This document shows positions 12,288 through 26,172 of a DNA stretch of 64,000 bases, piece after piece. The DNA is taken from contig NZ_CP101154.1 in the NCBI RefSeq assembly GCF_024298905.1, positions 3,498,932 through 3,562,931 on the forward strand. Reading direction: 5' to 3'. The stretch's first letter is position 1. Every line of letters begins with the position of its first letter. Below the pieces are notes generated by a model that was not told where the DNA came from, ran no database searches, and saw only the letters and a list, made by a program, of their open reading frames with translations. A program made the translations under genes and the position numbers. Source of the stretch: Natronomonas marina (GTDB lineage: Archaea; Halobacteriota; Halobacteria; Halobacteriales; Haloarculaceae).

Positions 12288-12743
12288 CTACGGCGCGTAG
12301 GTTCCCTCGAGCGTCGCCTTCTCGACGATGTGGCCGGTGACGGCGTCGGCGACGTCGTCCCGGGTGGCCGACGGCGGCAGGCCCAACTCGGCGTCCAGCG
12401 CGTACAGCCGGAACCGGTAGGTGTGCTCGCCGTCGGGCGGGTTCGGGCCGCCGTAGCCCTGCTCGCCGTAGTCGTTCTGCCCCTCGACGGCACCCTCGGC
12501 GTCCCAGTCCTCGGGAATCTCCTCGGTGTCGGGCGGGACGTCCCACACGAGCCAGTGGTCCCAGATGTGACCCGCCGGTTCGACGGCGTCGGGGTCGTCG
12601 ACGAGCAAAAGGAGCGACACCGTGCCGTCGGGGACGCCCGCGATGGACAGCGGGGGATTGACGTTCTCGGCCGTGTAGCCGTACCTGTCGGGAATCGGTC
12701 CGCCGTCGTCGAACGCTGGACTGGAGATGGTGAGTTCTGTCAT
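12288..12743 (-). CDS. YbhB/YbcL-type phosphatidylethanolamine-binding-like protein
   Basis: 151 aa, the usual length for the bacterial/archaeal PEBP (Raf-kinase-inhibitor-like) family. Conserved ligand-pocket motifs are present: LLLVDDPDAVEPAGHIWDHW (the D-P-D and G-H-x-x-H-W positions), WDVPPDTEEIPE, and GYGGPNPPDGEHTYRFRLYA. The family fold is certain, but no enzymatic role is known in archaea. Single gene, with a 229-bp region upstream that contains a probable guide RNA on the opposite strand. Confidence 0.93.
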   Translation of the reverse strand: MTELTISSPAFDDGGPIPDRYGYTAENVNPPLSIAGVPDGTVSLLLLVDDPDAVEPAGHIWDHWLVWDVPPDTEEIPEDWDAEGAVEGQNDYGEQGYGGPNPPDGEHTYRFRLYALDAELGLPPSATRDDVADAVTGHIVEKATLEGTYAP

Positions 12744-12857
12744 GGGTGTCGGGACCCCTGTCCCGTTCGTAGTTCGGACCGTGACACAAAAGCGTGGGTG
12801 GTGGTCCCGGCCGGGCGCGGAGGGACGGGTTTTTGCGCCCCGGCGCCGGAGAACCGA

Positions 12858-12922
12858 TGGTGGCGATGACGAGCGATTACCCCCGCTGAGCCCCTTGTGA
12901 TGAGGGATTCATCCGAGCCACC
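12858..12922 (+). ncRNA. Probable C/D box guide RNA
   Basis: The intergenic region holds all four boxes in correct order and spacing: C box GCGATGA 12863-12869, D' box CTGA 12886-12889, C' box GTGATGA 12897-12903 (perfect consensus) and D box CCGA 12913-12916. The ends can pair as a kink-turn stem, TGGT at 12858-12861 with GCCA at 12917-12920 (one G-U wobble). Guide stretches are CGATTACCCCCG before D' and GGGATTCAT before D. The D box has C for U at position 2 and the C box has C for U, both mild deviations. A T-run (GGTTTTTG) about 25 bp upstream may be the TATA region. RNAs of this class direct 2'-O-methylation of rRNA or tRNA; the target is not identified. Confidence 0.6.
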
Positions 12923-12972: not shown

Positions 12973-13593
12973 TCAGAAGAACTTGAACAGGTCGTCCCGC
13001 TGCTGCTCGTGGAGGTGGTGTCGGACGGCCTCGTTCAGCGGGTCGATACTGCCGCGTTTCGCGGAGACGGGCGCCAGAACGTGGTCGAACTGCTGCCAGG
13101 GCGGGTAGAGACCGAGGCGCTCGGCGAGTTCGTTCAGGCGCTCGTCGCGGTCGTCGACCTTGTCCATCTTGTTGACGGCGACGACGGCCGGCACCCCGAC
13201 CTCCTGCAGGAAGCCGAACATCTCGACGTCGTGGGGGATTTCGTCGGGGCCGGAGTGGCGGTCGATGATGTCGACGGCGGCCTTCCCGTCGACGACGAGG
13301 ATGCCGACGAGGATGTTCTCGGCGTACTCCTCGACGTAGCGGACGACGTCGGTCTTGATGCGCTCGCGGACGTCCTCGGGGACGCCGGCCATGAAGCCGA
13401 AGCCGGGCAGGTCGGTGACGACGAAATCCTCGGCGGCCCAGTCGAAGTGGTTCGGTTCCGTCGTGACGCCGGGGCTGCCGCCGGTCGCAAACGAGTCGTG
13501 GCCGGTGATCTCGCGCATCAACGTCGACTTCCCGACGTTGGACCGCCCGACCAGCACGATTTCGGCGTCGCGGTCCGGGCGCGTGTCGAACAT
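12973..13593 (-). CDS. engB: EngB/YihA-family ribosome-assembly GTPase
   Basis: 206 aa with G1 [18 protein letters not shown]2 region around [15 protein letters not shown]3 [14 protein letters not shown]4 [11 protein letters not shown] and G5 [15 protein letters not shown]-class GTPase; bacterial EngB is needed for 50S assembly, and archaeal copies are assumed to act similarly. It has a clear ATG start and ends 51 bp after the probable guide RNA, which is encoded on the other strand. Confidence 0.93.
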
Positions 13594-25856: not shown

Positions 25857-25886
25857 GTGTGTTCACCACGGGCGTTGCGTGGTTCA

Positions 25887-25906
25887 ATTTCCCCGAGCGG
25901 GGAAAT
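25887..25906. promoter_or_regulatory. Palindrome over the rpl15e core promoter
   Basis: ATTTCCCCGAGCGGGGAAAT has 9-bp perfect arms around a 2-base centre. On the coding strand its downstream arm runs into AAATTGAA, which sits about 27-34 bp before the start codon. The position suits an operator that blocks TBP or TFB, or a hairpin if transcription starts further upstream. Confidence 0.5.
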
Positions 25907-26172
25907 CACATCCCGACCTGCGTAGACAGGCGCCCGCTGGTGCCCGTCGTCCAGCGAGTTGTCGTGAATTCCCCGCGATATCGGTTAAGCGCTTCGAAAG
26001 CCACTGCGCTCGCGGCCGGGCGCGGTAGCACCACTGCCGACGAGGCCCGCTTTCGCAGGCCCCTCTCTGCCGGACGACCGAGTTTCGTATTGCGACATAC
26101 AGTTTATACCGGCAGGTCGGGAGGAGATCCGTCACGAACGGAAAACCGGCGGAGAACGGCTCCGAATCGCCT
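25907..26172 (-). other. Long non-coding stretch between rpl15e and rio2, with a possible structured transcript
   Basis: No credible open frame is seen in the 316 bp between the two genes. On the minus strand a good TATA sequence (GGTATAAAC, TATA part 26104-26109) would start a transcript near 26079, leading towards rpl15e. Soon after comes a 9-bp hairpin closed by a GAAA tetraloop (26042-26063). Its two G-U wobbles pair only on this strand, which hints that the minus transcript is the selected one. It could be a long leader of rpl15e or an independent RNA; it does not resemble tRNA, RNase P RNA or 7S RNA. Confidence 0.3.

Follow-up and report, generated by a model that had tools for sequence, protein, structure and literature searches.

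Grosjean et al. (2008; PMC2584109) reported a box C/D candidate for G1950 of 23S rRNA that has homologues in 25 genomes of archaea. The modification itself, Gm1950, was mapped in the 23S rRNA of Haloarcula marismortui, where it is one of only three 2'-O-methyl sites found, and helix 69 (H69) is a subunit-bridge helix (PMC2584109). An orphan RNA of Pyrococcus, sR41, was suggested as the modifier of the nucleotide equivalent to G1950 (Grosjean et al. 2008, PMC2584109). The same paper places Gm1950 at E. coli position 1909 in H69; a review (PMC11542601, Table 1 and text) equates it with E. coli Gm2251. The numbering used here was counted back from pseudouridines 1956/1958 of H. marismortui (E. 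coli 1915/1917; PMC2584109).

The window, a 64,000-nt stretch of a haloarchaeal chromosome (G000:C1:3498932-3562931, Natronomonas marina), carries an RNA gene that is best filed in this predicted G1950 guide family, because such a candidate was already reported by Grosjean et al. (2008). With a probability of roughly 0.93, it would encode a haloarchaeal box C/D sRNA for 23S G1909 (E. coli), that is, G1950 of H. marismortui, with the D' guide as the working guide.

Architecture of the RNA gene

Judged from its sequence and conservation, the segment at 12859-12922 on the + strand is a real box C/D guide RNA gene (Table 1), with the full order GGTGGC-GAT-GACGA-GCGATTACCCCCG-CTGA-GCCCCTT-GTGATGA-GGGATTCAT-CCGA-GCCACC. 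The C, D', C' and D boxes follow one another within the span of about 50-70 nt expected of an archaeal box C/D sRNA, and their order on the + strand, already proposed in the initial annotation, was borne out by the sequence and by cross-genome conservation. The register of the C box had to be changed. GCGATGA (12863-12869), combined with a 4-bp terminal stem and a 16-nt D' guide interval, was rejected in favour of ATGACGA, three bases downstream, since relatives keep ATGACGA, GTGACGA or ATGATGA (the last being the canonical C box, present in several of them) followed by a guide of 12-13 nt. Because the C box sits at 12866-12872, the D' guide is 13 nt long and the terminal stem has 6 bp. In this register the stem is perfect and adjoins a 3-nt k-turn bulge (GAT); with its covariation, it is the k-turn-forming terminal stem of an archaeal box C/D sRNA.

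A scan with the box and spacing pattern gave one match with 0 mismatches in the 64 kb, while 100 shuffles gave none with up to 2 mismatches; this pattern was fixed after the site had been seen, and the independent evidence is the cross-genome conservation. The genome has adjacent genes for fibrillarin and Nop, which provide the fibrillarin/Nop5 pair of archaeal box C/D sRNAs. In the Rfam scan of the window, no family reached its gathering score for this RNA. The scan also placed an eL15-Euryarchaeota ribosomal protein leader at 25876-25930 (-), above the gathering score.

Table 1. Features of the box C/D RNA locus (positions in the window)
Feature	Position	Strand	Remarks
PEBP-like gene, other flank of the RNA gene	12288-12743	-	
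Putative promoter: BRE-like region and T-rich TATA element	12819..12834	+	TTTTT at 12830-12834; AT peaks in homologues
Box C/D guide RNA (predicted), whole conserved unit	12859..12922	+	Covariance model R1: 84.5 bits, E 5.6e-17, own genome; 288/293 genomes of the order
Terminal stem, 5' arm GGTGGC	12859..12864	+	Pairs with 12917-12922; compensatory changes at 4/6 pairs (A2)
C box ATGACGA	12866..12872	+	Alignments A1, A2
D' guide GCGATTACCCCCG, 13 nt	12873..12885	+	12877-12885 is the part paired to 23S H69 CGGGGGUAA; C12881 opposite G1909 (E. coli)
D' box CTGA	12886..12889	+	Sequence, alignment A1
D'-C' spacer GCCCCTT	12890..12896	+	Unusually conserved (alignments)
C' box GTGATGA	12897..12903	+	Sequence, alignment A1
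D-side interval GGGATTCAT	12904..12912	+	Variable in sequence and length among relatives
D box CCGA	12913..12916	+	Alignments
Terminal stem, 3' arm GCCACC	12917..12922	+	Covariation with 5' arm
engB-like GTPase gene, convergent neighbour outside the RNA	12973..13593	-	Linkage conserved: EngB match in 41 of the searched loci

Neighbouring genes and putative promoter

The RNA gene had been described as lying upstream of engB. In fact, engB is convergent and the RNA gene lies beyond its stop, on the 3' side. Several of the loci with EngB matches belong to other families. The T-rich element noted at about -25 was recovered: TTTTT occupies -29 to -25 relative to the first stem G and falls on the AT peak of the homologues. 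Counted from the first stem base, AT content in 112 homologues reached 72-90% at positions -29..-26 and 73-81% at -11/-10; TTTTT fills the first of these sites in the window, but the second reads GG. The two peaks fit an archaeal TATA box and a promoter-proximal element, with transcription from the first stem base, and would set the start at about 12859. A scan for bacterial promoters and terminators, which is not meaningful for an archaeon, gave no match.

Conservation across haloarchaea

BLAST searches with about 64-100 bases as the query gave matches to the element in 17 of the 20 genomes from the genus and in 119 of the 146 from the family. A covariance model (R1), built from an alignment of 32 members of that single family (A1), detected it in 288 of 293 genomes and 85 of 87 genera of the order. 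Every one of the 255 good-quality genomes (>=90% complete) was positive, and each of the five without a match is incomplete. Among named genomes, a pattern scan located the element in Haloferax, Halorubrum, Halorientalis, Halobaculum, Halogeometricum, Halomarina and others. The initial annotation had put forward conservation of the boxes in related genomes as a check, and they are kept across the order.

In A1, TTACCCCC in the D' guide and the core residues of all four boxes were invariant. When 55 sequences (47 distinct) were aligned to the model (A2), 99.3% of the stem cells paired, compensatory changes occurred at 4 of the 6 pairs, and none of 500 shuffles reached the covariation score.

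Paralogue and related C/D RNAs

The genome also carries a paralogue, a weaker family member (51.9 bits) at G000:C1:1630286-1630352 (-), with the order GGCGGC-GAT-GATGA-GGCTCGTACCCCCGCT-CCGA-GCCCCGT-GTGACGA-CGCCCACTT-CTGA-GCCGCC. It resembles the window RNA in stem geometry, C/D', spacer and C', but its D' guide lies two bases further 5' on H69 (9 Watson-Crick pairs and 1 G-U) and is predicted by the N+5 rule to select G1907 instead of G1909. Its D interval, unlike that of the window RNA, is conserved in relatives. Similar copies of this paralogue (L234/L301) occur in G002, G003 and G016.

Another C/D subfamily, at L081 (G113), L090 (G111), L091 (G137) and L092 (G083), has the D' guide GTTACCCC[TA], shorter by one C, together with a similar D guide (C.CGGGA), which suggests an additional guide RNA in which both guides would work. 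In addition, one genome of another family of the order (G296) had five covariance-model matches.

The D' guide and its probable 23S rRNA target

Archaeal box C/D sRNAs carry, directly upstream of D' or D, an antisense element of 8-12 nt to rRNA or tRNA of their own cell. The D' guide of the window RNA forms 9 consecutive Watson-Crick pairs with CGGGGGUAA of H69 in the 23S rRNA of the same genome, directly against box D', as the predicted complementarity to a stable RNA would have it. Over all 16S and 23S rRNA, H69 was the lowest-energy site for this guide (-16.2 kcal/mol), and the next distinct site (-15.7 kcal/mol) contained internal mismatches. Two further candidates, 16S h11 GGGGUAACGG (8 bp) and the near-rival site at LSU 2758, each had a mismatch next to D' and ranked below H69.

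The D' guides of relatives form 10-11 bp with H69, at about -20 kcal/mol on the same target. For each of the 10 genomes that had both rRNAs available, the best D' match was the same H69 site, with 9 Watson-Crick pairs in the window organism and 10 in the others. The window guide GATTACCCCCG carries a G-to-A change that sets an A opposite C1914, so that one pair is lost compared with most relatives and the duplex is shorter. In the shuffle test of run length, 39 of 300 shuffles equalled the window guide, and 3-9 of 300 equalled the guides of other genomes. With shuffles matching these run lengths, the pairing by itself is of only moderate significance, and the weight of the target assignment lies on the invariance of the guide and on where its fifth base lands. 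By the N+5 rule, C12881 stands opposite the fourth G of GGGGG in CGGGGGUAACUAU, which is G1909 in E. coli and G1950 in H. marismortui. The fifth G marked for methylation in the initial annotation thus falls on the mapped Gm1950/G1909 site. The RNA very probably directs 2'-O-methylation of 23S G1909.

In the proposed mechanism, transcription of the sRNA would begin at about 12859, from a promoter of its own, and the 6-bp terminal stem would fold it into the C/D k-turn, with an internal C'/D' motif besides. L7Ae, Nop5 and fibrillarin would then bind, the D' guide would pair with the 5' strand of H69 (CGGGGGUAA), and fibrillarin would 2'-O-methylate the nucleotide opposite the guide base 5 upstream of D'. 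For the D side, a role in assembly only is probable. As regards expression, RNP assembly and methylation in this organism, this course is inferred.

Haloarchaea have very few rRNA 2'-O-methylations. Given so few such sites, a guide kept in every good-quality genome examined would place Gm1909, in the bridge helix 69, among the few methylations that haloarchaea retain.

Alternative readings of the spacer and the D interval

D'-C' spacers are normally free to vary. The spacer GCCCCTT (12890-12896) is conserved across the order nearly as strongly as the boxes, which the G1909-guide model does not account for. A C/D RNP with a main role beyond methylation guiding, for instance as a chaperone of rRNA folding to which this spacer would also contribute, would agree with a spacer so conserved beside a D interval that is free to vary, and with the position of H69 in a subunit bridge (PMC2584109). 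We consider such a role improbable, since the bare spacer had no match to rRNA or tRNA better than its own shuffles and archaeal C/D RNAs with one functional guide do not need it. Pairing of the spacer as a third antisense to the 16S h44 region CAAGGGGGC reached 8 Watson-Crick pairs and a G-U only when part of D' was included; this reading was rejected as unsupported, because shuffles did as well as the bare spacer and the D' box is not available for pairing.

Less probable still, and in our view quite unlikely, are two working guides, with the D' guide serving G1909 and the D guide a second site at LSU position 1384, in GUGAAUCCC here. The D interval does have an rRNA site in its own genome with 8 Watson-Crick pairs and 1 G-U (LSU 1380-1388), directly against box D. 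However, 28 of 300 shuffles equalled this best match, and even the nearest relatives differ in this interval, both in sequence and in length (9-13 nt). Among nine other genomes, one had a weak match (G005, 7 Watson-Crick pairs, 45/300 shuffles) and the rest stayed at chance; against tRNAs nothing rose above chance (best match 7 Watson-Crick pairs, equalled by 53 of 300 shuffles). The D interval was accordingly dropped as a functional guide, and with it the 'fifth A' target that the initial annotation had assigned to it. The conserved D guide with a target that marks a double-guide C/D sRNA was not found, and we treat the RNA as a presumably single-guide species.

A chance arrangement of boxes in GC-rich intergenic DNA, which could be argued from the degenerate C and D boxes, from their discovery by eye and from the lack of an Rfam match at the gathering threshold, is refuted by what is conserved between variable flanks in 288 of 293 genomes, namely exactly the boxes, the stem and the D' guide, and by the compensatory stem changes.

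Half-copies and toxin-antitoxin-type modules in other haloarchaea

Half-copies of the sRNA gene were observed in genera g3, g11 and g13 and in one genome of another family (G154). Each contains the promoter, the 5' stem arm, the C box, the D' guide and the D' box, followed by ACCCAGTTTCTATTAATAGAT, the core of which, TCTATTAATAGA, is a perfect palindrome. The loci include L080 (G113), L085 (G031), L238 (G040), L240 (G030), L241 (G047), L242 (G048), L087 (G042), L251 (G099) and L253 (G154). The pattern of a half-copy plus ACCCAGTTTCTATTAATAGAT occurred in 10 of 392 genomes, and the reversed control gave 0. A half-copy is found about 0.7-14 kb upstream of a full copy and runs in the same direction; some loci have two or three of them in an array.

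The short gaps between copies hold single modules of toxin-antitoxin (TA) type (Pfam): Fic proteins, Fic/Doc, RHH with a PIN-like protein, a nucleotidyltransferase with a HEPN-like protein, MazE/AbrB with a PIN-like protein, and HicA with a DUF7387 partner. The labels PIN-like and HEPN-like were given by eye to proteins that had no Pfam match. No integrase was seen in the stretches read around the half-copies. The window's own gene has no such insertion or cassette neighbour.

The sRNA gene in other haloarchaea looks like an integration hot-spot, and site-specific insertion is the simplest reading of the half-copies; a regulatory role of the half-RNAs is also conceivable. We give even odds to the idea that, besides guiding, the sRNA gene is a site-specific landing place for small TA cassettes in other haloarchaea, where each insertion brings its own promoter and a replacement 5' half of the sRNA, so that the gene stays intact and a displaced half-copy is left beside the TCTATTAATAGA palindrome. 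No specific report of TA cassettes at C/D genes came up in a literature search. If confirmed, such cassettes would add a non-tRNA RNA gene to the integration hot-spots.

Comparison with known guide RNAs

The exact gene, start site and guide make the role as a Gm1909 guide testable. Moreover, the covariance model could fill an annotation gap, as the window RNA is reported by no Rfam family. Three Rfam families, sR1, sR47 and sR49, align with it end to end in box order and spacing, but their guides are unrelated and their scores lie far below the gathering scores (20.3 against 45, 19.0 against 40 and 18.5 against 50 bits, respectively). Pyrococcus sR41 shares its suggested target nucleotide and RNA class with the window RNA, a likeness by description, not by sequence; no sR41 family was reported in the Rfam scan of the window.

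A guide for G1950/G1909 has been predicted since 2008, so the window RNA is well supported but ordinary, and the TA-cassette lead is the more novel. The G1950 guide of Grosjean et al. (2008) has the same target site and guide class as the window RNA, which is near-universal in haloarchaea. The window variant differs by the G-to-A change in the guide and a duplex one pair shorter. On the grounds of its target and its distribution rather than of an alignment, the RNA of the window is most likely an orthologue of that guide.
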